Below are positions 3,001 to 61,670 of a stretch of DNA of 64,000 nt, in pieces. Numbering within the stretch: position 1 is the stretch's first letter; every line of letters starts with the position of its first letter. The notes under the pieces were generated by a model that saw only the letters and a program-made list of their open reading frames with translations, did no database searches and had not been told where the DNA came from. The position numbers and the translations under genes were made by a program. The DNA is from Arcobacter sp. (GTDB lineage: Bacteria > Campylobacterota > Campylobacteria > Campylobacterales > Arcobacteraceae). The DNA is taken from contig JAIFNA010000001.1 of assembly GCA_020048055.1 (NCBI GenBank), positions 28,985 to 92,984 on the forward strand. Reading direction: 5' to 3'.

Positions 3001-4362
3001 GAAACTTCAATCCTTTTGATGTTTGGCTCATTCCAAGAGTTCTCGAACCGACACAGAAGTTGTATTGAAACTCATTAGTTAAATCAGTCCAACGGACTTT
3101 GTCAGTCTCGAACCGACACAGAAGTTGTATTGAAACGAAGATATAAACGATGTAAATAATCCTTTTAATTTGCTCGAACCGACACAGAAGTTGTATTGAA
3201 ACAAGTTCCGTAAGCGTCTTTTACATCTTGAGGTAACTCGAACCGACACAGAAGTTGTATTGAAACCGATTTAATAAAGCCTCATCTTCAAGAGGGCTAA
3301 CGCTCGAACCGACACAGAAGTTGTATTGAAACAATCTTATGAAAGGGGGTAAGTTTTAATGTTTACCTCGAACCGACACAGAAGTTGTATTGAAACCCGC
3401 TTCTGTTTAAAGTTGGAAGTAAGGAAGAAGGTCTCGAACCGACACAGAAGTTGTATTGAAACAATGATATTCTTACTAAATCCGCTGAAATATTTTTACT
3501 CGAACCGACACAGAAGTTGTATTGAAACCGGAATGACATCTACAATCAAAAATATTTTACTTTCCTCGAACCGACACAGAAGTTGTATTGAAACTAAGTT
3601 GGTTTCTTTGTTGTGCGACTTGCATAGTTCTCGAACCGACACAGAAGTTGTCGAATACCCTAATCCTAGTTTATTCTCGAACCGACACAGAAGTTGTATT
3701 GAAACAGTCTTCCCAGTAAAGGGGATAGTCTAATGGATTTTCTCGAACCGACACAGAAGTTGTATTGAAACTCAAACCCGATAACCTCTCCAACAGGTGA
3801 AATTTTCTCGAACCGACACAGAAGTTGTATTGAAACATTAGAACAGATTACTATTACAACGGTTTAGAAATTCTCGAACCGACACAGAAGTTGTATTGAA
3901 ACAGGTAAATGTACAAAGTTTATCGATAATGGATTTAACTCGAACCGACACAGAAGTTGTATTGAAACAAGATATGACCGTAGATATTCGCAAAAAGTTG
4001 ACTACTCGAACCGACACAGAAGTTGTATTGAAACGTTCGTTTAGTAGCTCGTTTTTCTTGCTATTAACTGCTCGAACCGACACAGAAGTTGTATTGAAAC
4101 TTTGGTTTTACAATCAATCTTAGGTATTCATTTATCCTCGAACCGACACAGAAGTTGTATTGAAACTTTCCATAACCCTTCAATAAAATTTTTCGTAAGT
4201 TTCTCGAACCGACACAGAAGTTGTATTGAAACATTTACGACACATTAGGGTATCTCTCTCATCATACTCGAACCGACACAGAAGTTGTATTGAAACGTAA
4301 ATAATTGGGGAAGCTCTCAAAACTTTCCAAGACTCGAACCGACACAGAAGTTGTATTGAAAC
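1..4362 (+). CRISPR. CRISPR array 1, 68 repeats, left end outside window
   Basis: A 30-bp repeat that begins CTCGAACC and ends ATTGAAAC recurs about every 66 bp, from a copy cut by the window edge (1-25) to the last copy at 4333-4362. I count 68 repeat copies and 67 spacers, mostly 34-38 bp. The ATTGAAAC end is the usual crRNA 5-prime handle of type III and I-B repeats, which puts transcription on the plus strand and the leader left of the window. Two copies are truncated on the right (1240-1262 and 3630-3651), each followed by a short spacer (21 and 24 bp). No cas gene lies beside it in the window. The long open frames across it are repeat artefacts. Confidence 0.98.
1204..1283 (+). repeat. 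Duplicated spacer followed by a truncated repeat
   Basis: The 36-bp spacer at 1204-1239 is identical to the first spacer in the window (26-61), 1178 bp away. The repeat after it (1240-1262) lacks its last 7 bases and runs straight into a 21-bp partial spacer. The pattern suggests recombination between array copies followed by an internal deletion, although an assembly collapse in the repetitive array would look the same. Confidence 0.85.
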
Positions 4363-4557
4363 TTAAAAAACTTATAAACAACACCACTCCTCTTCCAATT
4401 TAGTTACTTGAACCTGAATTGATTTTTATTCGTGCATTGTCTAAATTCGCCATATATTTATTCCTCCTCTCCTCTTTTAAATTATTTACGTAATAGTCAT
4501 AATTTTTTATAAATTTGATATAATTAAATATATTTAAGGAATGAAAAGGGTGATAAA
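4363..4557. other. Trailer side of array 1 and toxin-antitoxin promoter
   Basis: AT-rich region after the last repeat. On the minus strand an AGGAGG ribosome-binding site precedes a 17-codon frame (4453 down to 4400) that stops at once; it may be the stump of a gene cut off when the array end was rearranged. On the plus strand a TATAAT box near 4519 and an AAGG-type site serve the antitoxin gene. Confidence 0.35.
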
Positions 4558-4806
4558 ATGCAAACAATACATTTACAAGTTCAAGATAATCTTTATAACC
4601 AACTCATTAAAAGTGGTGTAAATATTCAAGAAAAGTTTAATGAACTTCTATACGATATGCTTGATGATGGATATCCGTCAATTACAACAGAAGAGGCAAA
4701 AAAAAGAGTAAGTGATGCTGTGAAAGAATATGAATCTGGAACTATGAAAACTATACCTTATGAGCAAGGAATGGATAAAATTGATAACTGGCTGAAAACT
4801 ATTTAA
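4558..4806 (+). CDS. Antitoxin of a ParE-type toxin-antitoxin pair
   Basis: An 82-residue acidic protein placed directly before a ParE/RelE-like toxin; its TAA shares one base with the toxin ATG, so the two are translationally coupled. The N-terminal third should form the DNA-binding, dimerising part, and the C-terminal part (residues about 42-80, rich in E, K and D) resembles the toxin-neutralising tail of Phd/RelB-like antitoxins. I infer the role from size, order and coupling rather than from a clear family motif. It probably represses its own promoter. A GGGTGAT site 5 bases before the ATG supports the start. Confidence 0.7.
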   Translation: MQTIHLQVQDNLYNQLIKSGVNIQEKFNELLYDMLDDGYPSITTEEAKKRVSDAVKEYESGTMKTIPYEQGMDKIDNWLKTI

Positions 4807-5090
4807 TGACATTTATTATTGAAAAAAGTCCATTTTTTGATGAAAATTTATTTGTTATTTTAAAGTATATTGCAAACGATAGCCCAAACAATGGAAGAAA
4901 ATTTAAAAGTAAACTTGATCAAAGTATTAAAAATCTTAGCTATATGCCATACAAATTTAGAAAATCTCATTATTACAACAAAGAGAAAATAAGAGATTTA
5001 ATCTTCAATGGTTACACTATTCCATATCTTATTGATGATGAGAAAAACCAAATTGTAATATTAGATATTTTCAAGTGGAGCGAGAGATGA
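4806..5090 (+). CDS. ParE/RelE superfamily toxin
   Basis: A 94-residue basic protein with the ParE-like pattern: an N-terminal strand (TFIIEKSPFF), two helices, a KFRKSHYY segment and the closing strands IRDLIFNGYTIPYLI and QIVILDIFKW. Known members poison gyrase (ParE) or cleave mRNA on the ribosome (RelE); sequence alone does not settle which. It overlaps the antitoxin by one base. The pair sits between CRISPR array 1 and a stranded array remnant, so it may stabilise this end of the array or may have arrived by insertion. Confidence 0.8.
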   Translation: MTFIIEKSPFFDENLFVILKYIANDSPNNGRKFKSKLDQSIKNLSYMPYKFRKSHYYNKEKIRDLIFNGYTIPYLIDDEKNQIVILDIFKWSER

Positions 5091-5108
5091 TTATTTTTCA
5101 TATTTATA

Positions 5109-5558
5109 CTATAATGCTTCCATTAAAAATCGAGTGAGTGAGTGGCTAGTAAACATTTTTTCTTCCATCATCTTCTTTTCAAATTCAACAGGAGACAAAT
5201 TATTATTTGCACTATGAGATCTTTGTCTATTATAAAACACTTCAATATATTCAAAAATACTTCCATTTGCCTCGGATTTTGTTTCATAAATTTCATGATA
5301 AACAAGTTCAGTTTTTAGAGTATGGAAGAAACTCTCGCTTACTGCATTATCCCAGCAATTACCCTTCCTTGACATACTTTGAACAATTCCATATTGTTCA
5401 AGTAAATCTTTATGCGAATAAGAGGCATATTGACTCCCTCTATCTGTGTGCCAAATAAGTCCAGCTTGTGGTTTTCTTTGTTTTATTGCCATAAGTAAAG
5501 CATCATTAACAAGTGATGCTTTCATTGTATCATCCATTGACCAGCCAACTATTTTTCG
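5109..5558 (-). pseudogene. IS3-family transposase (OrfB), C-terminal fragment
   Basis: About 150 codons of an IS3/IS150-type DDE transposase. [10 protein letters not shown] carries the second Asp, [16 protein letters not shown] the catalytic Glu, and [20 protein letters not shown] is the usual C-terminus. The protein begins abruptly at RKIVGWSM, so about half of OrfB, all of OrfA and the outer end of the element are missing. The break coincides with a degenerate CRISPR repeat at 5559-5577, and the longer open frame is completed by translated repeat sequence, not transposase. The element therefore appears to have inserted in or beside the array and then lost its front half by recombination. 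Confidence 0.9.
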
Positions 5559-5640
5559 CAGAAGTAAGTATTGAAACAGATTAACTTTCGGATGTTGAGA
5601 GTTAAATGTACTCGAACCGACACAGAAGTTGTATTGAAAC
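5559..5640 (+). CRISPR. Stranded remnant of CRISPR array 1
   Basis: 5611-5640 is a perfect copy of the array 1 repeat, 1.25 kb beyond the array end. It is preceded by a 33-bp spacer-like segment (5578-5610) and a degenerate repeat end at 5559-5577 (CAGAAGTAAGTATTGAAAC). The array once reached here; the toxin-antitoxin pair and the IS3 fragment now separate the two parts. Confidence 0.9.
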
Positions 5641-46116: not shown

Positions 46117-46377
46117 CTAATATATCTCTTTTCTATGTCCAATTCTAACTATAATGACAATAAGTTCTTCATCTTGGATTTTAAATACAATTCTGTATTG
46201 ATTTACTCTTAATCGAAATTTTCCTTTATATTCACCTTTTAATGGTTTAATATTATTCTTTAAAAGTTCTGGATTTTCGACCAACAGAAGTAGTTTTTCT
46301 TTGATAAGCTTTTGAATAACTCTATCAAGCTTTGCAAATTCTTTTTTTGCACTACTCAAGAAATGTAACGAATACAT
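46117..46377 (-). CDS. relE: RelE-family toxin
   Basis: An 86-residue toxin with the classic RelE/YafQ pattern: YSLHFLSSAKKEFAKLD, a helical hairpin, KPLKGEYKGKFRLRVNQYRIVF and IIVRIGHRKEIY. RelE toxins cleave mRNA in the ribosomal A site; R and K residues of the active site are present. It follows its antitoxin after 3 bp. Confidence 0.92.
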   Translation of the reverse strand: MYSLHFLSSAKKEFAKLDRVIQKLIKEKLLLLVENPELLKNNIKPLKGEYKGKFRLRVNQYRIVFKIQDEELIVIIVRIGHRKEIY

Positions 46378-46380
46378 ATT

Positions 46381-46608
46381 TTATATTCCAAACTCTTTAA
46401 ACACTTCACTTGCTGGAATCATTGTTTCTTGATTATTTTCAAGATTTTTCAATCTTGCATCAGAAAGTTTTTCATCAATGATATCAAAATACATTGTTAA
46501 AGCTTTCTCAACAATATGTGATTTTTTCTCATTAAGCTCCAAAGAGACGCTATTTAACTCATCAATAATAAAATCTGACACAGTAAATGTACTTCTTATT
46601 TTTTGCAT
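46381..46608 (-). CDS. relB: RelB-family antitoxin
   Basis: A 75-residue protein: STFTVSDFIIDELNSVSLEL is the ribbon-helix-helix and PASEVFKEFGI the toxin-binding tail. A GGAGAAAAG site precedes the ATG. Autoregulation is likely through the inverted repeat at 46623-46640. Confidence 0.88.
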   Translation of the reverse strand: MQKIRSTFTVSDFIIDELNSVSLELNEKKSHIVEKALTMYFDIIDEKLSDARLKNLENNQETMIPASEVFKEFGI

Positions 46609-46640: not shown

Positions 46641-46696
46641 TGATTATATGAAAAAAGAACATAAAGTTATCTTATCCATTTTTTATCTAAGATTTA

Positions 46697-46787
46697 AATC
46701 CCCTAAAATACCTCCACTCGTGCTAAAGCACATTCGTTTTGGTTTCAAACTTAAAAATGTGAAGCAGTTCACATTTTCTTAACAGTT
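46697..46787 (-). repeat. Trailer of CRISPR array 2 with terminator-like hairpin
   Basis: The leader-distal end of the array. It begins with a degenerate repeat end (AATCCCCTAAAA) and includes AAAATGTGAA / TTCACATTTT (46754-46777), a 10-bp stem with a GCAG loop; on the minus strand the stem runs into a T-rich tract, as in a terminator. All 91 bp are duplicated inside the array at 47296-47386. Confidence 0.75.
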
Positions 46788-46810
46788 TAGCATAAAGTGA
46801 TTCAGCCAAC

Positions 46811-48740
46811 GTTTCAATCCCCTAAAAATCGGGTCATTTGGTATTAAAACGAAAAAGAAACAGTCAGAGCATTGTGTGTTTCAATCCCCTAAAAATCGGG
46901 TCATTTGGTATTTAGACTTGAAGCAAGAGCACAGTCGTTGAAATTTGGTTTCAATCCCCTAAAAATCGGGTCATTTGGTATTTCACCATTAACACAAGAA
47001 GAATATAAAGAGCAAGTGTTTCAATCCCCTAAAAATCGGGTCATTTGGTATTTGTCAACAGTTAACAAATTGGGGGACTGGATGAAGTTTCAATCCCCTA
47101 AAAATCGGGTCATTTGGTATTAGCTCCCATCACTGATAATAGAAGATTAGACATAGGTTTCAATCCCCTAAAAATCGGGTCATTTGGTATTAAAAGACTT
47201 CTTTGCAACCCTTGGGGTGATCAGTTTCAATCCCCTAAAAATCGGGTCATTTGGTATTTTATAAAAGCTTTGCAGGTGATACTGCAGTAAGTTTCAATCC
47301 CCTAAAATACCTCCACTCGTGCTAAAGCACATTCGTTTTGGTTTCAAACTTAAAAATGTGAAGCAGTTCACATTTTCTTAACAGTTGAATAACAAAAAAC
47401 GGAACACTGTTTCAATCCCCTAAAAATCGGGTCATTTGGTATTATGAGAACTTTATCCTTAACAAACATAGGGTTTTGTTTCAATCCCCTAAAAATCGGG
47501 TCATTTGGTATTTAAAAATGCTCAGATACAAATTCAGAAAATAAGGTTTCAATCCCCTAAAAATCGGGTCATTTGGTATTTATTAGGTGGGTTTGTTATA
47601 AGCATACCCATCGAGGGTTTCAATCCCCTAAAAATCGGGTCATTTGGTATTAGATATAGCTATCAAACAGTTAAAGAGTTCTTTGGTTTCAATCCCCTAA
47701 AAATCGGGTCATTTGGTATTTAGAGAGCAAAAATTCACAAAAAAAACTCCTAGTTTCAATCCCCTAAAAATCGGGTCATTTGGTATTAGATACTACACTT
47801 GTGAAGAGTGCGAAGGCACTGTTTCAATCCCCTAAAAATCGGGTCATTTGGTATTTTAAGCAGTGCTTCTGTTGATAAGTTGAACACAGTTTCAATCCCC
47901 TAAAAATCGGGTCATTTGGTATTTAGACAAATGGGTAGATAAAACTGCCGACACTGGTTTCAATCCCCTAAAAATCGGGTCATTTGGTATTAGCTGAATG
48001 GTCTGAGACATACACTCTCACAGAGTTTCAATCCCCTAAAAATCGGGTCATTTGGTATTGGAGTAGAGTAGCCCACAGCACTAAAAAAGTAATCTGTTTC
48101 AATCCCCTAAAAATCGGGTCATTTGGTATTTAGTTAATAGAGGGATTGACAACAAATCGCTATGTTTCAATCCCCTAAAAATCGGGTCATTTGGTATTTT
48201 ACCCAACGGCGACAGATAGAAACAACGACACAGTTTCAATCCCCTAAAAATCGGGTCATTTGGTATTAACATGTGTGACAGAATCGATTTCGAGCACTCA
48301 GTTTCAATCCCCTAAAAATCGGGTCATTTGGTATTATGGTCTGAGACATACACTCTCACAGAGGTATGTTTCAATCCCCTAAAAATCGGGTCATTTGGTA
48401 TTTTGTCGGGGATAGTTTATTAACATCATGGAGGGTTTCAATCCCCTAAAAATCGGGTCATTTGGTATTTAAGAGAAAGAATATATGTTGCACAAAAAAA
48501 GTTTCAATCCCCTAAAAATCGGGTCATTTGGTATTATTTGAAGATATGGAGAAATACAAAGTAACCGTAGTTTCAATCCCCTAAAAATCGGGTCATTTGG
48601 TATTAATGGTGTGCACGGGTTTAGTGTTTGGAAAAACAGTTTCAATCCCCTAAAAATCGGGTCATTTGGTATTATAAACAACGAAGGAGGAATAGAGATG
48701 CATGGGTTTCAATCCCCTAAAAATCGGGTCATTTGGTATT
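46811..48740 (-). CRISPR. CRISPR array 2, 28 units
   Basis: A 35-bp repeat (plus strand begins GTTTCAATCCCC and ends TTTGGTATT) occurs 27 times intact and once truncated (47291). Spacers are 32-35 bp. Read on the minus strand the repeat ends GGGGATTGAAAC, so transcription runs leftwards from a leader at 48741-48840 beside the cas genes. The plus-strand start of the unit list is 46811, the leader-proximal repeat 48706-48740. Two spacers (47992-48024 and 48336-48367) share 27 bp. Confidence 0.98.
47291..47408 (-). repeat. Trailer copy inserted in array 2
   Basis: Instead of a normal unit, 17 bp of repeat (GTTTCAATCCCCTAAAA) lead into a perfect 91-bp copy (47296-47386) of the array trailer at 46697-46787, followed by 22 bp of spacer-like DNA. 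The copy includes the terminator-like hairpin (47353-47376). It separates 20 leader-proximal repeats from 7 distal ones. Confidence 0.88.
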
Positions 48741-49256
48741 CCTTCACAGAGTCGTATTTATCGCATTTGTATTTCTTAAAAAAATCTTACACTTTGAAAA
48801 AAAGCTATTTTTAAGTCTAAACACTACTCGAACTCCTATAAAATACTCGAAAATATTCTTAACTAAATCTTAAATATTGTTATTGCGAATTAAATGAAAC
48901 TGTCATAAGTTGGCTTATAGATTGCTTCGTTCCTCGCAATGACTGGAATACTAAATCTTAAATATTTATAACATTTAGCTGTAAAAGAACTATGATATTT
49001 TACCCAAAAAAGCTTATATTATCGTTGGTTTTAAGTTGTCTTATGGATTGCTTCGTCGTTCCTCCTCGCAATGACTATGATGGATTGTTTTATCGTTTTT
49101 CTAGCAATGACAATATAGTCACTGCGAATGAAATGAAGCAGTCCATAAAAGCGAACTTATAGTTGTTTAATTGAAGCTGCAAAAAGAAAAGATGGATTGC
49201 TTCGTCGTTCCTTCTCGCAATGACTAAGAGGATGGATTGTTTCAATGGCTTTTTGG
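48741..49256. promoter_or_regulatory. Leader of array 2 and dispersed repeats
   Basis: 48741-48840 is the AT-rich, repeat-adjacent leader of the minus-strand array. Beyond it at least five half-copies of the dispersed repeat occur: ATTGCTTCGTTCCTCGCAAT (about 48918), GGATTGCTTCGTCGTTCCTC (49043), CACTGCGAATGAAATGAAGC (49119), GATTGCTTCGTCGTTCCTTC (49194) and a decayed one near 49081. No gene seen. Confidence 0.65.
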
Positions 49257-49568
49257 CTAAACATAAATAAGTTCCTTTTTGATACTTTCTTTAAATGGAC
49301 TTTGGCTATCAAGGTCAAAAATATCTATATTTCTATGAAATTTTTTTCTCAAAAGTTCTTTTAGTTCCCCAACCATTTCAAAATACTCATAAGATGATTT
49401 GTGAGTCAAAAAATCTTTTTGTTTTCTAATAGCTATATCTATATCGCTATAAGGGGTTTGGGTATTTTCAGCAAAACTTCCAAAAAGTGCAAAATCTTGA
49501 ATACTATTTTGAAATTTTGGCTTGAGTTCTTGAAGATAAGCTACAATATCTTCTTTTAAGTATCTCAT
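49257..49568 (-). CDS. MNT-type nucleotidyltransferase (orphan)
   Basis: A 103-residue minimal nucleotidyltransferase: ALFGSFAENTQTPYSDIDIA (residues about 26-45) holds the GSxA and DxD motifs. Such MntA proteins usually pair with a HEPN ribonuclease, which they inactivate by adding AMP; no HEPN partner is adjacent here. Start at the ATG at 49568, since a GGGGATGAAACG site precedes it; a longer frame reaches upstream. It lies between the array leader and the second cas2. Confidence 0.75.
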   Translation of the reverse strand: MRYLKEDIVAYLQELKPKFQNSIQDFALFGSFAENTQTPYSDIDIAIRKQKDFLTHKSSYEYFEMVGELKELLRKKFHRNIDIFDLDSQSPFKESIKKELIYV

Positions 49569-49611
49569 CGTTTCATCCCCTCTTTTTTTGAAGTATGGTA
49601 ACATAAATCAT

Positions 49612-49887
49612 TTAAACTATCGTAAATGGGTCATCGAGATTGACAGCTATTCCTGCGCGAAATCCACTTTTTTTGATAGTATAAATTCGCACATCATCCT
49701 CTTTTTCATCTATCCTACTTTTTATCTCTTTTTGGATTTCCTTAAACTCTTTATCATTTGGATTTGGAAGATAAAAAATACTGTATTGGATACGAAAAGC
49801 TACTTTTTCTATATATCTTGCGAGTTTTGAAAGTCGTTTTTCATCACTTATATCGTAGCAAATAAGATAATTTTTAACCCTTTTCAT
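49612..49887 (-). CDS. cas2: Cas2, second copy
   Basis: A 91-residue Cas2 with standard features: NYLICYDISDEKRLSKLARY (catalytic Asp in YDISD), RIQYSIFYLPN, and DDVRIYTI. Its ATG overlaps the stop of the Cas1-like fragment gene (ATGA), so I start at 49887 and not at the upstream ATG of the long frame. It is the protein closest to the array. Cas2 forms the dimer core of the Cas1-Cas2 integrase. Confidence 0.92.
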   Translation of the reverse strand: MKRVKNYLICYDISDEKRLSKLARYIEKVAFRIQYSIFYLPNPNDKEFKEIQKEIKSRIDEKEDDVRIYTIKKSGFRAGIAVNLDDPFTIV

Positions 49888-50210
49888 AGTATTTTTGCCC
49901 TTTTGTATTTCGCTACTATATGCCCATACCCATCTATAAAATAGATTTTGATATATCTTGAGATGGCATAGCATTCACTTATGGGAAGTGCTATATCTTT
50001 GTGGATATAGAGTGCTTTTAGATTTAATACCCCATAAATTTGGGATAAAACACCATCATTTACTTCAAGATAAGTGTTTTTAAGGCTTATTTGAAGTGTT
50101 GGTGTTTTTAAGATAAGGTTGTATTTGACTCTATTTGTTTCTTCAAAGTTACTATTTTTTTGTTTACTTTTTTGTTGAGCTGGTTCATAAATGGTTTGAG
50201 TATTTTCCAT
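49884..50210 (-). CDS. Cas1 N-terminal-domain-like protein
   Basis: A 108-residue frame. LKNTYLEVNDGVLSQIYGVL and LPISECYAISRYIKIYFIDG, AKYKR resemble the beta-rich N-terminal domain of Cas1, without the catalytic helical part. It overlaps cas1 by about 100 bp and its first 35 residues may not be translated; the ATGA overlap with the following cas2 argues that the gene is real. It may be a relic of a second adaptation module. Confidence 0.45.
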   Translation of the reverse strand: MENTQTIYEPAQQKSKQKNSNFEETNRVKYNLILKTPTLQISLKNTYLEVNDGVLSQIYGVLNLKALYIHKDIALPISECYAISRYIKIYFIDGYGHIVAKYKRAKIL

Positions 50211-50989
50211 AATTTAGTCCTTCCGTTTTGAGTTAGGTACACTCCACCTTTTATGGTGAAGTCGTCAGTTGTTAGGGTGTGGCTTAGAAAAAGGTCTGCC
50301 ACAAAGTTGTTTATGTCGCTTCTTAAAGTTTCTAGTAAATCGCTACTTAGAGCAAAGTGGTTTCGAAATGGAATATGCAAATAGCTAATACTTGGCTCAA
50401 ACCCTCTCATATAAAGTTTTGCCGTGATGGTGTTGTAGCCTAAAGTATAGATGTAGCTAAGGGTTGCATTTACTGGGTCAAGTGGTGGATTTTTACTGCG
50501 ATAACCTTTTGTGAGCTTCCTTTCAAAAAGAGAAAAATAATGCCCAAAATATTTTCGTGCCAATGCACCCTCTATCCCCATCATCGTATCGATATCTTTG
50601 GCAAGTGCAAGGGAAGTTAGCTCATCATCGACACTCATAACGATGTCGTATTTTTCTAAAGATGTTTTATGTGTTGTAAATTTTTCATAGAGTAACTCCT
50701 TTGCTATTTCGATGTTTTTTGAGAGTGCTTTGTATTGAAGGACTTTTTGTTCACTATTTTTGGAAATCGCTGGAAGAGTGATGGCAAACTTTTTTGAATC
50801 GTTGCTTAAAAAAAGGAGCGGAACATTTTCATTTGTGAGGTTTACTATCGTTTTTGGTGTGATTTTAGCACTTTCGGTTAAGATAAGTAAATCTATCAAT
50901 TTGAGTGGTATGGTGTGGTCATTGGTGTAGATTTTGGCACCTTTTAGCTCTATTTTTTGGTCGTTTTTGTCTATGATGACTGTGTTCAT
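50108..50989 (-). CDS. cas1: Cas1 integrase
   Basis: A 293-residue Cas1: N-terminal strand domain (MNTVIIDKNDQKIELKGAKI), then the catalytic helical domain with GIEGALARKYF (Glu), LHIPFRNHFALSSDLLE (His and Glu/Asp). It integrates spacers together with Cas2. I start at 50989, which has AAAGGA 9 bases before; the open frame extends 33 codons upstream, but into the dispersed repeat. No reverse transcriptase is fused. Confidence 0.93.
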   Translation of the reverse strand: MNTVIIDKNDQKIELKGAKIYTNDHTIPLKLIDLLILTESAKITPKTIVNLTNENVPLLFLSNDSKKFAITLPAISKNSEQKVLQYKALSKNIEIAKELLYEKFTTHKTSLEKYDIVMSVDDELTSLALAKDIDTMMGIEGALARKYFGHYFSLFERKLTKGYRSKNPPLDPVNATLSYIYTLGYNTITAKLYMRGFEPSISYLHIPFRNHFALSSDLLETLRSDINNFVADLFLSHTLTTDDFTIKGGVYLTQNGRTKLWKILKPFMNQLNKKVNKKIVTLKKQIESNTTLS

Positions 50990-51021
50990 AATTTGTATCC
51001 TTTTAGTAAAATCTAGACTAT

Positions 51022-51095
51022 TTTTGTGTACTGCTTCGTCGTTTCTCATCGCAGTGACTGTGTTGTCATTGTGAATGAAATGAAGCAATCCATCT
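51022..51095. repeat. Dispersed repeat between cas2 and cas1
   Basis: GTACTGCTTCGTCGTTTCTC with CGCAGTGAC, then GTCATTGTGAATGAAATGAA with GCAATCCATC: an opposed pair of the dispersed repeat family placed inside the adaptation operon. Confidence 0.7.
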
Positions 51096-52410: not shown

Positions 52411-53646
52411 TTAAATTAGTTTTTTGAGCGCTAGACTTTCATATTGAAAGATTAAGCTTGCAATATCTTTTTTTATGTCCGCAAAAGGTGTACTTGAGTT
52501 TGCATGGGCTAGATTGTTTCTTTTGTTGTCTATGTTTTTGTATAAAACTTCAATATTTAATTTACGATAACTATTTTGTAGCTTTTGATAATCGCTTTCT
52601 AAAAGTGTAATAGCTTTATTTTTATTATCTTTGGTAAATTTTTCATAATCTTTCCAAGAGAGATTTTTGAAAAAATCACCGATTTTATATAAATCATTTT
52701 TGAATTGTTTTTCAATATTTTCTACCAAATTTGGATGCTCTTTTTTGATAGCAGATTTGATATACATTCGTATACTCTCATATAAAAGTGCCAAACTAAG
52801 AAGCATATATCTCTTTTCAAAAAGATTTTTTGAAAGTTCATAATAGGTCAAATATCTTTTTTTACTACTAAAATCTGATAATTCCTCAATCACTTTTTTT
52901 AAACTTTGTGCTTGATTTTTGATAGAGACTTCGTGTACATTATCAAGCTCAGTTATTAAATTTTTTGCTGTGATAAATAAATTTCCTAGATTGAGTGCCA
53001 TTAGGTCATTTGAAAAGTCATTGAGTTCTTGAAGAAGTTTTTTGTATTTTTGTGAGTTTATATGACTAGCCACTGTGTAATTTCTTTCAAATGTTGAGAG
53101 TACAAAAGCGATATTTGCAAGGTCGAGATACTCTTTGAGGTCGATGATTTCATACTCTTTGAACTGCACTATCTCTTTTGCAAATAAAATCTTTTTAATT
53201 TTTGAAGTATCTTTGAAATTTTGGATAATCAAATCAACTATCATCAAAATTGGTAAATGCCGAAATCCATGTGAAACATCGATAATAAGCTCATCAAACT
53301 CATCAACGGCGTTGTTGATGATATTGAAAAGTTTCGTAAAATCTTTATCATCTTCAATAAAATATTTTTCATCAAAATGTGTAAACTCACTACCACTTTT
53401 TACCAAAACTTTTTCATTGACAGCTTTTGCCTCTTTGGTGTGAAGAGGGACGATAGTGTAGTCTTTAGAATATTTTTCACACAATAGAGGGAAAGTATTG
53501 AAATACTCTTTTGCATCAGCCTTATTTTCCTCAAAGTAGTATTGAGCTTTTTGGTGGTTGTCATTTCCACCAATTAATCCCAAAATAGTGATAACTGCTT
53601 TGGATTTTTTTGGAATACTTGTTTTTGCTACTATTTTGAGGGGCAT
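52411..53646 (-). CDS. CARF-HEPN ribonuclease (TM1812/Csx1-like)
   Basis: A 411-residue ancillary effector. N-terminal CARF domain (residues 15-190): AVITILGLIGG, and the ligand-site motif DVSHGFRHLPIL (about 123-134). C-terminal HEPN domain with RNNLAH (Rx4H, near residue 376). Cyclic oligoadenylate made by Cas10 should bind the CARF dimer and switch on RNA cleavage. The gene follows the large Cas7 by 11 bp and ends the effector operon. Confidence 0.88.
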   Translation of the reverse strand: MPLKIVAKTSIPKKSKAVITILGLIGGNDNHQKAQYYFEENKADAKEYFNTFPLLCEKYSKDYTIVPLHTKEAKAVNEKVLVKSGSEFTHFDEKYFIEDDKDFTKLFNIINNAVDEFDELIIDVSHGFRHLPILMIVDLIIQNFKDTSKIKKILFAKEIVQFKEYEIIDLKEYLDLANIAFVLSTFERNYTVASHINSQKYKKLLQELNDFSNDLMALNLGNLFITAKNLITELDNVHEVSIKNQAQSLKKVIEELSDFSSKKRYLTYYELSKNLFEKRYMLLSLALLYESIRMYIKSAIKKEHPNLVENIEKQFKNDLYKIGDFFKNLSWKDYEKFTKDNKNKAITLLESDYQKLQNSYRKLNIEVLYKNIDNKRNNLAHANSSTPFADIKKDIASLIFQYESLALKKLI

Positions 53647-53657
53647 TTTATTTTCCT

Positions 53658-55853
53658 TTATTTTATTGTTTTTATTTCAGCTTGTGCTTGTTTTAGTAAA
53701 TTTAAAATAAATTCTGAGCCTTCATTCTTTTTTGAATTCTCATATGTTTTAATAAAATTCTGTAAAGCACTTTTTAGAAATTTTTTATCTGCATTGTGTA
53801 TATTATCCCACTTATCTTGAGCTTCTTGATTTACTTTTGCAAACTTATTTTGCTTTTGTGCCTCTTCTAAAGTATTTTGAATAGCTTGTAACTCATTAAT
53901 TTTTTCATTTTCTGGATACTTAACAATAAAATTCTTGATAATATGAATATCATTTGAAGAGAGTGCTTTTTCAAAATCATCATTTTCTTTTTTGATTTTT
54001 GCTTCTAATTCCTCTTTTTCTTTTTTAGCTTGAATTTCTTGTCGTGCTTTTTCTTCTCTCTCTTTAGCTATCTCCTCTTTTCTTGAAATCAAAGATTTTC
54101 TCTCTTCATCACTAAGAAGTGATTTAACTGTAACTGATTTGATATTGTCAAGCGCTGTATAGTTTCTTAAATAGTCTTGCTCATTGCCTGTTTTATTTTT
54201 TGCAAACTCTGGTAGTTCTAAATATTTTAGTTTTGAATTTCCATCATTTTTTTGTTCTGTTGCCATTGAAACTAACTCTTTTAAGTGCTCACTACTTGCC
54301 CAATTTGGTATTTGTTCTGTTAGTGTAGTTTCAAACTCTTTAAGATAACTATTGATATCTTTTACACCATCAAGCTTTAACTCAATTTTGCCATAACCTA
54401 AAGATTTTGCCATACCAATATTGTGAAATGTTTTAGTGGTGTTGTGAAATGTAAGTGCTGAAAGCAATGCTCCAATCTCTGCTTTTTGAAGATTGTGATA
54501 TCTCAGTTTACCTTTGAATACTACTTCATCTTTTAAGGGCTTAAATGTTGTACCGACATTATCATTACCAGTAATTGTTGTTTTTGTAGTTTGATTTGAA
54601 TTATGAATAGGGTATCTTTTTCTACCTGCAATTTCAAAATAACTATCCATAAAAGTAGTGAATAATTTTCCATCAGTTTGTTGAACATAGATTGGATAGT
54701 ATGAAGCTCGTGGTGTTCCTAAAATCTCTTTTCTAGGATTCATTGGAGTTATATTTGAAATCGCTTTAAAATGGCTAAATTGTACTCTTCCTTTTAATGC
54801 TTCCTTTTTTTCTTTATTGATATAACCAAATATTGTTTGAGCTAAATCCAAATCTTCACTTTCAAAATGTGCTTTTGGAATACCATCTTTAATACTATGA
54901 GAATACGGTAATTTATAAAGATATGAAAGTCCAAAATGTTTTATGGTAGCACCATCTTTTTGAAAAAATACAGGAACTTTCTCTCCATTTTCAAGTTTCT
55001 TTTTCCAATAAGTCCAATCTGGTGATTCTTTTGGTTCTGTTGTTCGTTTGTCAAAATAGGCGAATTTGAAGTTTTCCATAGCTTCTTTTGAAACTGGTAA
55101 TTCACCTTTTGCATCAAAAAATAAAAACTCATACCCTTTTCCATCTCCCATTTTACCTGTATCTTTTCTTGGAGTTGGTTGACCTGTTAGAACTAAAATA
55201 GCTTTATTTTTATCATCTTTTGAGTAGTTATAAAAAACTCTATTGTCATATTTTGCATTCGTTTTTGACTTAAAAGGTTCAGATAAAGTTATTGCCTTTA
55301 ATCCTGCTCCAATCTTATTATATTTATACTCTGAAGATTTTTGTTTTTGATTTTTTGCATCAAAATTATTTCCCTTAAAATATTGTGCAAATTTAACATT
55401 TAGTGCTTTATCTATCTCTTCATGTCTTATGCGTCCGACTTCTCCGCAATCTTCAATGATATAGTTATTATTGACTTTTTTAAGCCAACCACCAAAGGTA
55501 GGTTTTTTCATTTCGCTCATATAAAAATTATCTGCTTTTGATAAATCTCTAACCGCATAAGTGTTGTCATCAAAAATTTCATCTCTCATTTTAGAAAAAC
55601 TCATAATCTCCAAAACATTTCTAACCATCCCTTTGACACTGGTCGACGGGATATAATATTGTCCATTATGTTGACAAAATTCCTCTTTGTTTTCGTGGTC
55701 TCTTATAAAAATTGGACTTTTAGCCGTAATTGTAATCCCTATCTCACCACTTTCACCATCTTCAAATGGTATATCGTGACTGACTTGTTCACTCCAAGTT
55801 GGATAAAAAACCTCTTTATTTAGAGGTACAAAATTGTATGGTGCTGTTATCAT
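53658..55853 (-). CDS. Large Cas7-like RAMP (insertion-type, TIGR03986-like)
   Basis: A 731-residue RAMP that starts ITAPYNFVPLNKEVFYPTW, the hallmark of TIGR03986 proteins of type III-D. RAMP features: YIPSTSVKGMVRNVLEIMSF, the FRxxG-like GRVQFSHF, and FHNIGMAKSLGYGKIELKL (Gly-rich loop, about 490-508). Two long insertions separate these. The last about 180 residues are a charged coiled coil (REEKARQEIQAKKEKEELEA). It corresponds to the Cas7-insertion subunit of III-D variants. It overlaps the Csx19-like gene by 4 bases. Confidence 0.88.
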   Translation of the reverse strand: MITAPYNFVPLNKEVFYPTWSEQVSHDIPFEDGESGEIGITITAKSPIFIRDHENKEEFCQHNGQYYIPSTSVKGMVRNVLEIMSFSKMRDEIFDDNTYAVRDLSKADNFYMSEMKKPTFGGWLKKVNNNYIIEDCGEVGRIRHEEIDKALNVKFAQYFKGNNFDAKNQKQKSSEYKYNKIGAGLKAITLSEPFKSKTNAKYDNRVFYNYSKDDKNKAILVLTGQPTPRKDTGKMGDGKGYEFLFFDAKGELPVSKEAMENFKFAYFDKRTTEPKESPDWTYWKKKLENGEKVPVFFQKDGATIKHFGLSYLYKLPYSHSIKDGIPKAHFESEDLDLAQTIFGYINKEKKEALKGRVQFSHFKAISNITPMNPRKEILGTPRASYYPIYVQQTDGKLFTTFMDSYFEIAGRKRYPIHNSNQTTKTTITGNDNVGTTFKPLKDEVVFKGKLRYHNLQKAEIGALLSALTFHNTTKTFHNIGMAKSLGYGKIELKLDGVKDINSYLKEFETTLTEQIPNWASSEHLKELVSMATEQKNDGNSKLKYLELPEFAKNKTGNEQDYLRNYTALDNIKSVTVKSLLSDEERKSLISRKEEIAKEREEKARQEIQAKKEKEELEAKIKKENDDFEKALSSNDIHIIKNFIVKYPENEKINELQAIQNTLEEAQKQNKFAKVNQEAQDKWDNIHNADKKFLKSALQNFIKTYENSKKNEGSEFILNLLKQAQAEIKTIK

Positions 55854-56260
55854 TTATCATCTCCTTTTGCAAATCCTACAAAGACTACTTTTTTGAGTTT
55901 TAGTGTAGGAATATTTTCACAAAATGGGTCGTTTTCCTCTTCCCAAATCTGAGCCATTTTAATTTTATAACTAAAATCTTTTATATCTGAAATATATTTT
56001 TCGGTATCTTTTGATGCTATATTTGAAATATCTGTTGTTGAAATCAACCAACTATCATTTATTTGTCTAATCATTACAGATTCACTTCCGTTACAAAAAT
56101 GAGCCTCATAGATAAAGCCACTTTCATCAACTATCTCAACCTTTTTAGCACCTGTAAATATATCTTTTTCTTTATCTATTGGACGATTTGAAAATTGAAC
56201 ATAACCTTCATAATCCCTATAATTTTCATTTATTATTTTTGCAATATCTTCTTTTCTCAT
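55850..56260 (-). CDS. Csx19-like / TIGR04423-like small subunit
   Basis: A 136-residue protein: YEGYVQFSNRPIDKEKD, then KVEIVDESGFIYEAHFCNGS and SESVMIRQINDSWLISTTDI. Its size and its place between two cas7 genes fit Csx19, an accessory subunit of type III-D complexes; the sequence also recalls a small type III-associated family seen in Campylobacterota. I cannot decide between them. Overlaps of 4 bases on both sides show strict coupling. Confidence 0.55.
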   Translation of the reverse strand: MRKEDIAKIINENYRDYEGYVQFSNRPIDKEKDIFTGAKKVEIVDESGFIYEAHFCNGSESVMIRQINDSWLISTTDISNIASKDTEKYISDIKDFSYKIKMAQIWEEENDPFCENIPTLKLKKVVFVGFAKGDDK

Positions 56261-57555
56261 AGTTTTTCTCCATCTTTTAAAACAGTTCCAATAAACACTC
56301 CATGCCCTTTTGTTGTAGCCCCACCAAGAGGAAGCATACCTGTAGCTATATCTTTAAGTGTAGTTTCAAATGCTTTTAGTTCATCAGACACAATTGACTT
56401 TTCAAGTAAAATTTCTATTTCGTACTTATCATTGTCTTTAGATATAGTTTTTTCTTGAAATAATGCCCCATCAAGTCCTCCACCTGTAAATCTATCAATT
56501 GCCACATGGTCAAATGTTTTAGTTTGCCCACCATCATTTTTAAAACAATCAGAGATAAGGATTTTCCCTTTTTGTCCAAGTTCAGTTTCGTTATCACTTG
56601 CTAACTCTTTTTTGTGTCCAAAAATAGCATCAATAGATAGAACTCCATTGTTTGCTTCTATTGTATTGCCTTTGAGTTTATTAAAATGATATGTTGTACG
56701 ATGAGCAATTGCCCCTTTTACTGAACTTGCCGGTATTAATACTTTTTTAGCTGTTAGTTTTTTATTTTCATAGTCCACAACACTTTCATACACGGGTGTC
56801 ATATCCGCATCATCATCTCCAAATCCACTCCCAAACATGAAGAAATCTTCTGGGCAAATTTTGAGAGTATAGACTGTATAGTTGATATTTTGTCGTTCAT
56901 CTTTTGGGAAAAGTTTTGAATATGAGGTATTAAGAGAAGACGATTTTTCTTGATATTCTTTGGTTGTAATTTCAAAAGTATCATAGCTACTAAGCTCATT
57001 TAAAATCTTAATATCCCCAAATCCTTTAGTGGTACCGCCACCCAATCTAAAAACTTTTGAATTGATAACTTTGATGAGTTCATCCCAATTTGAATGGTCA
57101 TTGTCATCAGCTATTAGTTCTAGTCTAAATTTAAAACGAGTACCTTTATAAACTACCTCTTCATCAAATTTTCCACTATTTTCACTGTCTGCTACACCTT
57201 TTGATGTAATCTTTGTGTGTTCTCTTTGAGGAAGGTTTTCAAAAATCTTTAAAAAGTCATTTTTATTTGGATTGAGTGTTTCTATCACTTGCATATCTTT
57301 ATCACAAAGAAGTGCATTTGAGATGATAATCCTTGAGCCTTTTTCATCACCAAATATATCATTTGCAAAATTTTTATCAAACTCTTTTCGCAAAACTCCA
57401 GCAATAGAAGTTCCTAGTATCATAGGAAGCTCATTCCAATCTTTTTGTACAGGAGCATCTTGAAGCATATCAAGATCACTACTTCCTACTTTTAGAGGAG
57501 TTTTTGCTTCAAAAACTATATTGGCTATATATCTTTTGTTATACTTATTTCCCAT
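56257..57555 (-). CDS. Double Cas7 RAMP (Cas7-2x)
   Basis: A 432-residue protein composed of two Csm3-like RAMPs. First unit: IVFEAKTPLKVGSSDLDML, PMILGTSIAGVLRKEFD, REHTKITSKGVADSENSGKF and RLGGGTTKGFGDIK (residues about 10-190). Second unit: IPASSVKGAIAHRTTYHF, HVAIDRFTGGGLDGALFQE with a candidate catalytic Asp, and LGGATTKGHGVF (about 270-425). Cas7 subunits form the backbone and cut target RNA every 6 nt. The fusion is the Cas7-2x of III-D variants. Confidence 0.88.
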   Translation of the reverse strand: MGNKYNKRYIANIVFEAKTPLKVGSSDLDMLQDAPVQKDWNELPMILGTSIAGVLRKEFDKNFANDIFGDEKGSRIIISNALLCDKDMQVIETLNPNKNDFLKIFENLPQREHTKITSKGVADSENSGKFDEEVVYKGTRFKFRLELIADDNDHSNWDELIKVINSKVFRLGGGTTKGFGDIKILNELSSYDTFEITTKEYQEKSSSLNTSYSKLFPKDERQNINYTVYTLKICPEDFFMFGSGFGDDDADMTPVYESVVDYENKKLTAKKVLIPASSVKGAIAHRTTYHFNKLKGNTIEANNGVLSIDAIFGHKKELASDNETELGQKGKILISDCFKNDGGQTKTFDHVAIDRFTGGGLDGALFQEKTISKDNDKYEIEILLEKSIVSDELKAFETTLKDIATGMLPLGGATTKGHGVFIGTVLKDGEKL

Positions 57556-58906
57556 CTTTTCCCCCTTTTGTGTGTTTACTTACTATCATCGCAAGAAGTT
57601 TTGTAAATTCTAGTGGATTAGATGATTTTTGAATCTCACTGAAAAGCTTTCCTTTTGTATCTTCCCATTGTTTTTTTGAAGTACCTTTTGAGAAATAATC
57701 TTCTATTTTTACTATTAAATCCTCTTTATTTTGTGCTATTGAAGCAAATATTCGTATTTGTCCCCATTGTGATTTTGATGGGCCAATTAAATCTTTGTAC
57801 ACTCTTTGCACATCAGATGAAACTTCAAATATGTCATTTTCTTTTTGATGCTTATGAGATAAGAATGAGATAAGATTTTTATCAACATTGTCTTTTTGAC
57901 TGTATTGTTTTTCTTGTATATATTTTGTAAGAATTGGATTTTTAAAGGCTAGAAACTCTGGGTTGATGATAATATCTCCAAATCCTTCATTTAAAAATGC
58001 TCCTATTTTAGAAGGTATCTCATCTATGCAGTTTTGAACTGCTATGATGCTCCCATTGTTTATACAAACTCTTGTATATTCTTTTGTTTGTCGTTTGTAG
58101 TTGTATGGATGATATGTAGAAGTTTTGATATATGTTTTATCCCAAACTATCTCTCCACTTGTAAGTCCTAAATTTTCTATAGTTGGTGTACTTGTAAAGT
58201 TTCCATCTTTATCATACAAAGCTAATCTTGAATTTACATAGATATAAGTCAAATTTTCAGATGGTTTTTTACTCTCTATTTGTTTTGGAGTGTCTATTAG
58301 AGATATCAATACTTGACCATATTGACTTGTTTTTGATTTTCCTAGTTTTTTTGTTCCAAGAAGATTTTGTTCTACTTGTAAGATATATTTTTCATCTTTG
58401 TATGAAACTTTAAATATCCAATTTGACCCAGATTTTAAAGCACTATATCCGTACATTCCACTATCTTGGCTTTTTCTATTTTCTTTATCATATGATGATT
58501 TTTGAGAGTAGTTATATTCAGGCAATATAAATGTTCCAGATGAAGTCATAAAACCATTTCGTATTTGTTTTAGTTGTTGTTGATCTTCTCTTAAAGTTTT
58601 TTCTTCTTCATTGGTGAGTTCTAATCTATTAAAAATCCCTTCTCCAACTTTTAGAGAATGAAAAACTAGTGGTATTTTATATGTTTGTTCTGCTTCAATA
58701 GCAATATGAGCGTCTCCAAATTGCACTGCTCCACTATGAAAAACTTCAAAAGCATCATCTCCAAAACTATCATAAGCAGTTGCTACCATACCTAAAAAGT
58801 TACTACCACTTATAAAATCACTTAAAGCTACATTTCCTTGTGTATTTGAACTAGCTGGAAGTACAATATCACTTAAAAATTCACAATTATAGTATTTCGT
58901 TATCAT
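57545..58906 (-). CDS. csx10: Csx10, Cas5-like RAMP of type III-D
   Basis: A 453-residue protein. FLSDIVLPASSNTQGNVALS, then DFISGSNFLGMVATAYDSFG (residues about 10-48), matches Csx10 (D/E-x-S-L/V-x-x-x-S-N-T/S-x-G-N... then PGS-x-x-x-G). VQFGDAHI and LNEGFGDIIINPE (Gly loop, about 325) are also typical. Csx10 defines subtype III-D and probably binds the crRNA 5-prime handle. It overlaps both neighbours. Confidence 0.88.
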   Translation of the reverse strand: MITKYYNCEFLSDIVLPASSNTQGNVALSDFISGSNFLGMVATAYDSFGDDAFEVFHSGAVQFGDAHIAIEAEQTYKIPLVFHSLKVGEGIFNRLELTNEEEKTLREDQQQLKQIRNGFMTSSGTFILPEYNYSQKSSYDKENRKSQDSGMYGYSALKSGSNWIFKVSYKDEKYILQVEQNLLGTKKLGKSKTSQYGQVLISLIDTPKQIESKKPSENLTYIYVNSRLALYDKDGNFTSTPTIENLGLTSGEIVWDKTYIKTSTYHPYNYKRQTKEYTRVCINNGSIIAVQNCIDEIPSKIGAFLNEGFGDIIINPEFLAFKNPILTKYIQEKQYSQKDNVDKNLISFLSHKHQKENDIFEVSSDVQRVYKDLIGPSKSQWGQIRIFASIAQNKEDLIVKIEDYFSKGTSKKQWEDTKGKLFSEIQKSSNPLEFTKLLAMIVSKHTKGGKDGK

Positions 58907-59406
58907 TTGATTACCTCGATTTTACATCTTCCAAGACCTCTATTTCTATTGAGTCCTATTTGTTTTATCATACCTAGTGCTTGAGTTATTAACTCCTCAT
59001 CTTCACACTCTATTGTCCCACTTAAAAGTAAAGGTACTACAACTTCTATCTCTCGTAAACTTTTATCCACTGCGATTCCATTTTCTCCAATTTGTGTAGA
59101 GGTAACTTTATCAAAAAGATGTTTTTTGAGTATTGGATTATTGATAAGATAATTTGCTGTATCTTCATCTAAAGTAGCATTTGAAAAATATGAACTCGCT
59201 ATATTGCTCCCTTTGTCACCAAATATTTCTTTTACTTTTGAATTATCAAGAAGTTCCACCATCTCTTTTACTAATCCTTTAAGTGTTTTTCCTGGAAGAT
59301 ATGGCAATCCATCACTATCTTTTACTACCAAACTATCCATTGAAGGACCCGCACTAGCACCACTGCTTAAATGCCAAAAGTCATAAAAAGTTATATTATA
59401 TTTCAT
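58903..59406 (-). CDS. Small Cas7 (Csm3-like RAMP)
   Basis: A 167-residue single RAMP: ITFYDFWHLSSGASAGPSMD, PYLPGKTLKGLVKEMVELLD, then STQIGENGIAVDKSLREIEV and the Gly-rich GLNRNRGLGRCKIEV. Shorter than usual Csm3 (about 220), which may mean a reduced thumb. It overlaps cas10 (TAATG) and csx10 (ATGA). Confidence 0.85.
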   Translation of the reverse strand: MKYNITFYDFWHLSSGASAGPSMDSLVVKDSDGLPYLPGKTLKGLVKEMVELLDNSKVKEIFGDKGSNIASSYFSNATLDEDTANYLINNPILKKHLFDKVTSTQIGENGIAVDKSLREIEVVVPLLLSGTIECEDEELITQALGMIKQIGLNRNRGLGRCKIEVIK

Positions 59407-60827
59407 TATTTGTTACTCCAATCTACTACTGAAAGATGTGTATCGATCTCACCTATTGGTGTATATGTTTTATTGTCTCTCATATATGTAAGTTCTGTTA
59501 GTTTCATCTCATTGTTAAACTCGAAAAGATTATTTTCCAAACTTCTTTTATTGTACATTTTTTCTTTCAAATCCATCATTTGATTAATTCTAAGAAGTCT
59601 TTCTTTTGCATCATTGGAGTTTTGCCCAACAATTGTCAGCCACTCTCTATATCTACTTGCTGGGCTTCCTTGCACCATCAAAGCTCCGCTTAGATTGTTA
59701 AAAGCATCTATTGTAGAGTAGCTTTCTTGAGTATGTACAAAGTATGGTCCATAGTTTAAATATACTGTGTCAATCCCTTTGTTTAAAGTCAATTCTTTAT
59801 CAATATATTCATTAAAATCTGTAAAATTTGAACTTTGAATATTGTGAAACATCAAACTTGATGGTGCTAAATCTAGCTTTATAGCTTTACTATGCTTTTT
59901 ACTATAACTACAAAGTGATTCAGCAAGATTCACAGCATAATGGAATGGATATTTATGATTACAATAGGCGATTCCTGCACAAGCAGTTAAACCTGCTCCG
60001 CCCATTTGCTTTTGAGTTTGTTTTTCAAACTCTTTTAAAAACTTATTTGTAAAATCAAGAGCTATATTTGCATCGCATATGATAGTCATATCATCACCAC
60101 CAAGGATAACTTTTCTGATACTTTTTTTATTTATATCTTTAGTTGCATTTTCAAAAGCCGTATTAGTAGCCTCATCAAGATTTGTTGAAAATTCTTTATA
60201 TGCTTTTATAATCTCATCATCAGTTTTAAGATTTTTATTCATAGAAGCTATCATGGCTCCTAGTCCGTTTCCATCTGCATGGATAATAGCTGTTTTATTC
60301 TTCTTATTTTTAGGAATATTTACTGCCGAACTTTCATCATTTTTTGCTTCTGTCTCTTTTTGAATAGTTGCTTTATCAATACCCTCTTGAACTTCTGGTT
60401 TTCCACTTTTAGGAGCTAATTTGATGATGTTTATATTCGTATCTAGTGGAATTTCAGTTATATTTCTTTGTGTAAAAAGTTTCTTTTCTAAATTCTCAAA
60501 AGCATCTTTTAACTCACCATTTTCAAATTTAACAACTGCTTGAGATATTGTAATTCCAAAAGCTGATTGTTTTATTTCTTTTGGAAAATTTAAAACCAAA
60601 TCATCCAAAATATCTTTTTGGGTCTCATCAAAAATTAATTTTACATTTCCTGCTGCATTGATAACAACATTTTTTTCATATTTTTCTTTTACTTTATTGT
60701 TTATATTTTTTACAATTTCACTTGCACCTACTATAGTTTTTAGCTCATTTGTAGCAAAAATAAACTCCTGTATCCCTTGCACCGAAGCACCATATAAATA
60801 TTTACTCAACTGTGTTTCCTCCTTCAA
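59406..60827 (-). CDS. cas10: Cas10, signature large subunit with active GGDD
   Basis: A 473-residue Cas10. It begins straight at the palm-type YGASVQGIQEFIFATNELK, so the N-terminal HD nuclease is absent and single-stranded DNA cleavage is not expected. HADGNGLGAMI (183-193) and VILGGDDMTII (240-250) give an intact cyclase palm, followed by AGIAYCNHKYPFHYAVNLAE. It should make cyclic oligoadenylate on target RNA binding, feeding the CARF proteins of this locus. Confidence 0.94.
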   Translation of the reverse strand: MKEETQLSKYLYGASVQGIQEFIFATNELKTIVGASEIVKNINNKVKEKYEKNVVINAAGNVKLIFDETQKDILDDLVLNFPKEIKQSAFGITISQAVVKFENGELKDAFENLEKKLFTQRNITEIPLDTNINIIKLAPKSGKPEVQEGIDKATIQKETEAKNDESSAVNIPKNKKNKTAIIHADGNGLGAMIASMNKNLKTDDEIIKAYKEFSTNLDEATNTAFENATKDINKKSIRKVILGGDDMTIICDANIALDFTNKFLKEFEKQTQKQMGGAGLTACAGIAYCNHKYPFHYAVNLAESLCSYSKKHSKAIKLDLAPSSLMFHNIQSSNFTDFNEYIDKELTLNKGIDTVYLNYGPYFVHTQESYSTIDAFNNLSGALMVQGSPASRYREWLTIVGQNSNDAKERLLRINQMMDLKEKMYNKRSLENNLFEFNNEMKLTELTYMRDNKTYTPIGEIDTHLSVVDWSNK

Positions 60828-60845
60828 AAATTAAATTATCTTTCA

Positions 60846-61670
60846 TCATACTTTTAACTCCTTTACTTCAATCTTCCCGAGCCCAAAAACAGTGCTTTTC
60901 CCTAAAGCAATAAGCTCTCCTACTTTAAGGACTTCATAGCACTCTTTGCTTATATCTTTTATAGTTATTTCTCCCATCAAACCGCCTAAATTCATCGTTG
61001 TTTTTTGACGATTACTTTGTCTTGTAAGTTCTTTAAATTCAAGATTTTTACTAACAATTTCACCTGTCACAAGATAGGGGAACTTTTTATAATCACGCCC
61101 TAAAAGTTTCATTTGTCTTTGATAAATTGAGTTTATGATGTCGCTTAGTTCTATCTCATCGCTTCTTAAGTATCTATTTTCTTTTTTGATACGAAGTGGT
61201 GTTGCAAAGCGTAGTGTAATATTTGGACAGAAATTGTCGATTTCTAACTTTTTAGTAAACTCTTTTGGTAGTGAAAATTTGCCATCTTTGAAACAATTTG
61301 CATCATTGATATACATATCAAACTCTTTATAGGTTTTTTTCTCCACTCCAAGCCCTATTTGTGTAAGCAACATATGAAAAGCTGAAACCACATAAGGAAG
61401 TTTTGAAGTCGCCGTGTCAAAAAGGTAAAAGTCAAAATTGTAATATGAAAGCCCAAGTTCAAAGTCAAAACGGTATTTATGAAAAGTATTTTTCTCTTCA
61501 TAAAATTCGCTATAAAGGCAGTTTGAAGTAGCAAAACACCCCTCGCAAGAGTAAGATGGATTGATACAAGTTACTTTTTTGAGAGCATATCCCAAAGCCC
61601 CGCGAAGTTGGCTTCCTATAAAATATGGTGGTTTGTCTTTAATGATTATGGATAGTTTTGTGTAGATCAT
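60846..61670 (-). CDS. cas6: Cas6 pre-crRNA endoribonuclease
   Basis: A 274-residue double-RAMP. SQLRGALGYALKKVTC, the cysteine set CINPSYSCEGCFATSNC (residues about 35-52, possibly zinc-binding) and the closing NLGGLMGEITIKDIS then VGELIALGKSTVFGLGKIEV are features of the large Cas6 family with DUF2276-like C-terminus. It should process array 2 at the ATTGAAAC handle. The ATG lies in the stop of the Fic gene (ATGA). Confidence 0.9.
   Translation of the reverse strand: MIYTKLSIIIKDKPPYFIGSQLRGALGYALKKVTCINPSYSCEGCFATSNCLYSEFYEEKNTFHKYRFDFELGLSYYNFDFYLFDTATSKLPYVVSAFHMLLTQIGLGVEKKTYKEFDMYINDANCFKDGKFSLPKEFTKKLEIDNFCPNITLRFATPLRIKKENRYLRSDEIELSDIINSIYQRQMKLLGRDYKKFPYLVTGEIVSKNLEFKELTRQSNRQKTTMNLGGLMGEITIKDISKECYEVLKVGELIALGKSTVFGLGKIEVKELKV

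Follow-up and report, generated by a model that had tools for sequence, protein, structure and literature searches.

In many CRISPR systems decay affects the 3′ end of the terminal, leader-distal repeat (the trailer repeat), spacers can be integrated ectopically, and arrays are rearranged by recombination or slippage within the homology of their repeats, with duplication or deletion of whole blocks (PMC8047081). The array described here shares with these systems a decayed terminal repeat and a proposed junction that lies in repeat homology. Unlike known terminal repeats, however, half of its terminal repeat is replaced by a structured intergenic element, a second copy of which is found inside the array; and, unlike known rearrangements, the piece that appears to have been joined brings an array end into the interior, while in a relative (G023) the type of end matches the array of another species. 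A limited literature search found no description of internal array ends of this kind. Our account, held with slightly better than even confidence, is that the element, here called E, is a 3′-end element closing the array, and that its internal copy was once the end of the leader-side array, which has since been joined to a second array.

The stretch of DNA analysed (the window) comprises 64,000 nt of Arcobacter sp. (GCA_020048055.1, contig JAIFNA010000001.1, positions 28,985–92,984 of the forward strand), with the array lying within a 136-kb contig of a 2.0-Mb draft genome in 18 contigs. Perfect copies of the repeat GTTTCAATCCCCTAAAAATCGGGTCATTTGGTATT, 27 in all, are separated by spacers normally 31–36 nt long, and the features of the locus are collected in Table 1. 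Because cas1, cas2, leader and array follow one another in a single direction, an order identical in the related locus L087, and because the leader is conserved, the array is taken to be read on the minus strand, from right to left. This bears out a preliminary description of the same DNA, as does the count of 20 repeats on the leader side (right) and 7 distal repeats (left) of the internal copy of E. By score the cas operon belongs to type III-D, with Cas10d, the III-D set of Cas7 and Cas5, and Csx19 in one operon (PADLOC best hits: Cas10d, 1.5e-148; Cas5_IIId, 2e-131; three Cas7_IIId; Csx19, 2.1e-32; Cas6). Among 104 genomes of the family the array repeat was found in its own genome only, its core had no match in viral and genome collections, and there was no match for the array region among phages or for the array-end region among plasmids.

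Several further observations concern the window at large. Two spacers of the array (47992–48024 and 48336–48367) have 27 nt in common (ATGGTCTGAGACATACACTCTCACAGA) and therefore come from overlapping source sites. Positions 62–5640 hold a second CRISPR array, whose repeat (CTCGAACCGACACAGAAGTTGTATTGAAAC) differs from that of the first and occurs there 66 times without a mismatch. The array under study is immediately followed by two small genes (46117–46608; 86 and 75 aa) that by sequence resemble a toxin–antitoxin pair. Window 48880–49604, between cas2 and the leader, is occupied by dispersed GTCATTGCGAGG-type repeats in several copies and, at 49257–49604, by a gene for a nucleotidyltransferase; at the corresponding place L087 has only a short gap.

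Table 1. Features of the type III-D CRISPR locus and of the two copies of element E (window coordinates).
Feature	Position	Strand	Basis or remark
Decayed half repeat ATTTAAATCCCCTAAAA abutting terminal copy of E	46692–46708	−	compare GTTTCAATCCCCTAAAA
Terminal copy of E	46706–46793	−	covariance model R1, 86.0 bits, E 3.8e-16
Truncated spacer beside terminal copy, 23 nt	46788–46810	−	normal spacers 31–36 nt
CRISPR array, read right to left	46811–48740	−	27 perfect 35-nt repeats
Perfect half repeat GTTTCAATCCCCTAAAA abutting internal copy of E, proposed junction	47291–47307	−	decayed counterpart at 46692–46708
Internal copy of E	47305–47392	−	R1, 82.7 bits, E 2e-15; 91-nt identity to terminal copy
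Truncated spacer beside internal copy, 22 nt	47387–47408	−	sequence unrelated to 23-nt spacer
Leader region	48741–48960	−	conserved with three related loci (L087, L088, G023)
cas2	49612–49974	−	Pfam PF09827, E 9.5e-18
cas1	50108–51088	−	Pfam PF01867, E 1.8e-46; relative L087 89% identical
CARF-HEPN (Csx1-like) protein	52411–53646	−	PADLOC E 1.1e-121
Type III-D effector operon: Cas7, Csx19/Cas11, Cas7, Cas5, Cas7, Cas10, Cas6	53658–61670	−	PADLOC best hits

The perfect 91-bp copy of 46697–46787 that had been reported at 47296–47386 was confirmed (91/91), and the extended pair, 46693–46787 and 47292–47386, matched at 94/95 positions. No third copy was present in the 2.0-Mb genome, where the next BLAST match had E = 0.11. 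Also confirmed was the 10-bp stem with its GCAG loop and T-rich continuation: in the terminal copy, hairpin A (46720–46731) is accompanied by hairpin B (46754–46777, recurring at 47353–47376; AAAATGTGAA-GCAG-TTCACATTTT), which on the minus strand has a CTGC loop and a second arm running into TTTTTAAG. Absent from the preliminary description was the fusion of each copy of E to 17 nt of CRISPR repeat, the repeat end on the minus strand being perfect at the internal copy (ATTGAAAC) and decayed at the terminal copy (ATTTAAAT). Missing from both copies are the other 18 nt of the repeat and some 11 nt of the spacer that follows (29 nt in total), and both truncated spacers look like normal spacers of 33–34 nt that have lost about 11 nt.

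That the internal copy is a misjoin of the assembly would be conceivable in a draft of 18 contigs, but a repeat of 91–95 nt is short, its flanks are unique, it lies inside a 136-kb contig and the same kind of architecture occurs in G023, a genome in one contig; an artefact is thus highly improbable. We give equally little credence to ectopic spacer acquisition, documented in other systems (PMC8047081), as a process that duplicated the terminal repeat before the copies were separated. It predicts adjacent copies, spacers of about 33 nt and a decayed repeat end, whereas seven normal repeats lie between the copies, the neighbouring spacers measure 22–23 nt and the internal repeat end is perfect.

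The duplicated piece had been taken for the trailer of the array, a view that needs correction: it is not array-specific, and is instead one member of an order-wide intergenic family of two-hairpin elements. BLAST searches in the genus and family recovered sequences related to E outside arrays, and a covariance model (R1) was built on an alignment of 29 sequences, the terminal copy of the window among them. R1 is written on the plus strand, the neighbouring genes making the minus strand that of the upstream gene. The aligned sequences showed two hairpins, an invariant AAGCAGTT loop region and compensatory changes in 18/22 pairs; G–U wobble cells, counted as a gauge of strand preference, were nearly balanced, with 10 on the plus and 11 on the minus strand. 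Both window copies matched R1 with the conserved AAGCAGTT loop, the terminal copy being itself a sequence of the model. R1 was found in 64/104 genomes of the family (17/20 genera), at 1–17 copies per genome, and in 92/249 sampled genomes of the order (37/73 genera), the latter search being the more independent test because the seeds of the model came from the family. Searches against Rfam were negative, both for the window at gathering score and for five loci at E ≤ 0.1. REP/BIME and MITE palindromes are likewise short, intergenic, multi-copy and hairpin-forming, but E differs from them in its low copy number, in its strong orientation relative to stop codons and in its conserved lower stem and second hairpin.

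One stretch within E, GTTTCAAACTTAAAAATG, was considered as a decayed CRISPR repeat and rejected, because it is also conserved in copies of E outside arrays. In genome G007, units with GTCATTGCGAGG-type ends enclose copies of E, and three copies (L032, L034 and L036) share one and the same insert of about 75 nt, which lies between the hairpins or within them. At five loci in several genomes (L063, L065, L067, L073 and L086) E adjoins TGTTTCACGTGAAACA, which we take to resemble the ParB binding site parS.

Dispersal of this kind, with up to 17 copies in a genome of the family, raises the question of whether E is mobile and was inserted twice, independently, at the same place in CRISPR repeats. 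G023 and G034 do have inserts in repeat centres, and G100 has one next to a half repeat. Yet no other copy in the genome comes close to the array pair, no target duplication is seen at either array copy, the same 29 nt are missing at the two sites, and the insert of G023, which was considered as a member of family E, was rejected as such for want of an R1 match. Recent transposition, moreover, is unsupported, since the near-identical copies in G008 are copies of rRNA operons; double insertion is, in our judgement, unlikely.

Gene neighbours were surveyed at 55 places occupied by E, using simple open-reading-frame calls rather than annotation and including some homologous loci. All 34 open reading frames lying ≤60 nt away on the 3′ side of the loop (plus-strand reading) were on the minus strand, and their stop codons faced or overlapped E, often falling inside it, with the same offset in 12. 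On the other side, genes often started ≤60 nt away, 20/24 of them on the same strand, so that E spans the gaps between genes of one direction. Both array copies are oriented as at gene ends, the array replacing the upstream gene, and a 3′-end role is therefore plausible. The placement of E across the survey plausibly fits a 3′-end, processing or attenuating element, and throughout the order E probably marks the 3′ ends of transcription units. In the rRNA operons of G008 (six operon copies, L152–L157), to judge from sequence, E is also found between 5S and the 3′ end of 23S.

An intrinsic terminator has a stable, G–C-rich stem followed by a U-run. Like such Rho-independent terminators, E has a hairpin and then a T-run on the array strand, occurs at gene ends and keeps a fixed orientation; unlike them, it has few G–C pairs, a conserved loop and a second hairpin, belongs to a large covarying family and is found between 23S and 5S. 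The stem of hairpin B (−9.9 kcal/mol, 2 G–C pairs in 10 bp) is neither stable nor G–C-rich by that standard, although the U-run is present, and a consensus terminator scan did not call the hairpin of E. Promoter-like sites were no commoner in the region than expected by chance. The earlier proposal that the internal copy stops part of the transcripts and silences the 7 distal repeats is thus upheld in part: an effect is made plausible by the gene-end orientation (34/34), whereas the stem, the negative scan and the location in G008 speak against a conventional terminator. E would end, weaken or process the array transcript, leaving less crRNA from the 7 distal spacers, and the hybrid of element and repeat, since it lacks the first half of the repeat, may be poorly processed by Cas6.

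As to origin, the 91-bp identity, the lack of any other close copy and the divergence of the genome's remaining copies of E from the array pair indicate that the pair arose locally. In the reading we favour, E closed a type III-D array, fused to half of its terminal repeat, and a leader-side array of 20 repeats with its E end would have been joined to a second array of 7 repeats with an end of its own, when the terminal half repeat recombined with a normal one. The repeat ends observed, perfect at the internal copy and decayed at the terminal one, are those expected from a crossover inside AATCCCCTAAAA. The preliminary description had invoked a recent crossing between two arrays or array copies; joining remains the best reading, and has a parallel in G023 and G034. 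Identical sister arrays, however, cannot have been the source: a single crossover between them would have duplicated the adjoining spacer as well, and the spacers next to the two copies of E differ. Arrays that were already different next to E, a second step, or copying with a chance breakpoint must then be invoked. It also tells against fusion that the near-equal lengths of these spacers (23 and 22 nt) suggest an equal loss of 29 nt, which the model leaves unexplained. No strain with either array alone was found, and the repeat was in no other genome searched.

Template switching or gene conversion could have copied E from the end of the array into a repeat–spacer unit farther in, with the repeat half serving as homology on one side and microhomology in the spacer on the other. 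A single array would suffice, and both the different neighbouring spacers and the common right boundary, at the structural end of E, would be accounted for. On the other hand, the right breakpoint must then have fallen by chance at a near-equal distance from the next repeat (22 versus 23 nt), and the arrays of G023 and G034 resemble joined ends more than local copying; we regard copying as possible but doubtful.

G023, a complete genome in one contig with a related repeat, has inserts of 76–79 nt in the repeat centre of 6/20 repeats (the terminal repeat and five others; three of the six at the end of the array, three farther in). The insert of one interior copy, L3, was identical to the terminal-repeat insert of another species, G034 (76/76), as against 71/79 for the terminal insert of G023 itself. 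The repeat end of L3 is perfect where its counterpart in G034 is decayed, and in G022 merely a remnant of that terminal repeat is left. On the simplest reading of these sequences, the end of one array would have recombined with a repeat of another and been left inside. The window array is laid out in the same way around a different insert, and in G100, the genome with the array matching L087 (Cas1 89% identical), E itself stands at the array end beside a half repeat. G023 and G034 have the terminal insert in common while the neighbouring spacer differs, hence turnover beside a stable terminal repeat occurs in this family. The array of G023 (L120, 2190–4020) is itself a mosaic of four repeat types, in which insert and repeat variants recur in parallel order in two blocks. 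Spacers differ between these blocks as well, a point against the fusion reading as far as the details of joining are concerned.

More tentatively, E may be an undescribed, order-wide RNA 3′-end element which, in arrays joined end to end, sometimes across species, forms the boundary between separately expressed blocks. An array end inside an array would be the visible scar of joining, and joining would offer a route to many spacers at once that is invisible in spacer lists alone. With its strong covariation and its fixed relation to stop codons across the order, family E looks uncatalogued and is worth describing. Should E end or weaken transcripts, under-expression of the 7 distal spacers would follow; and, if it affects transcript ends, this array would provide a natural test of the influence of an internal boundary on crRNA supply.
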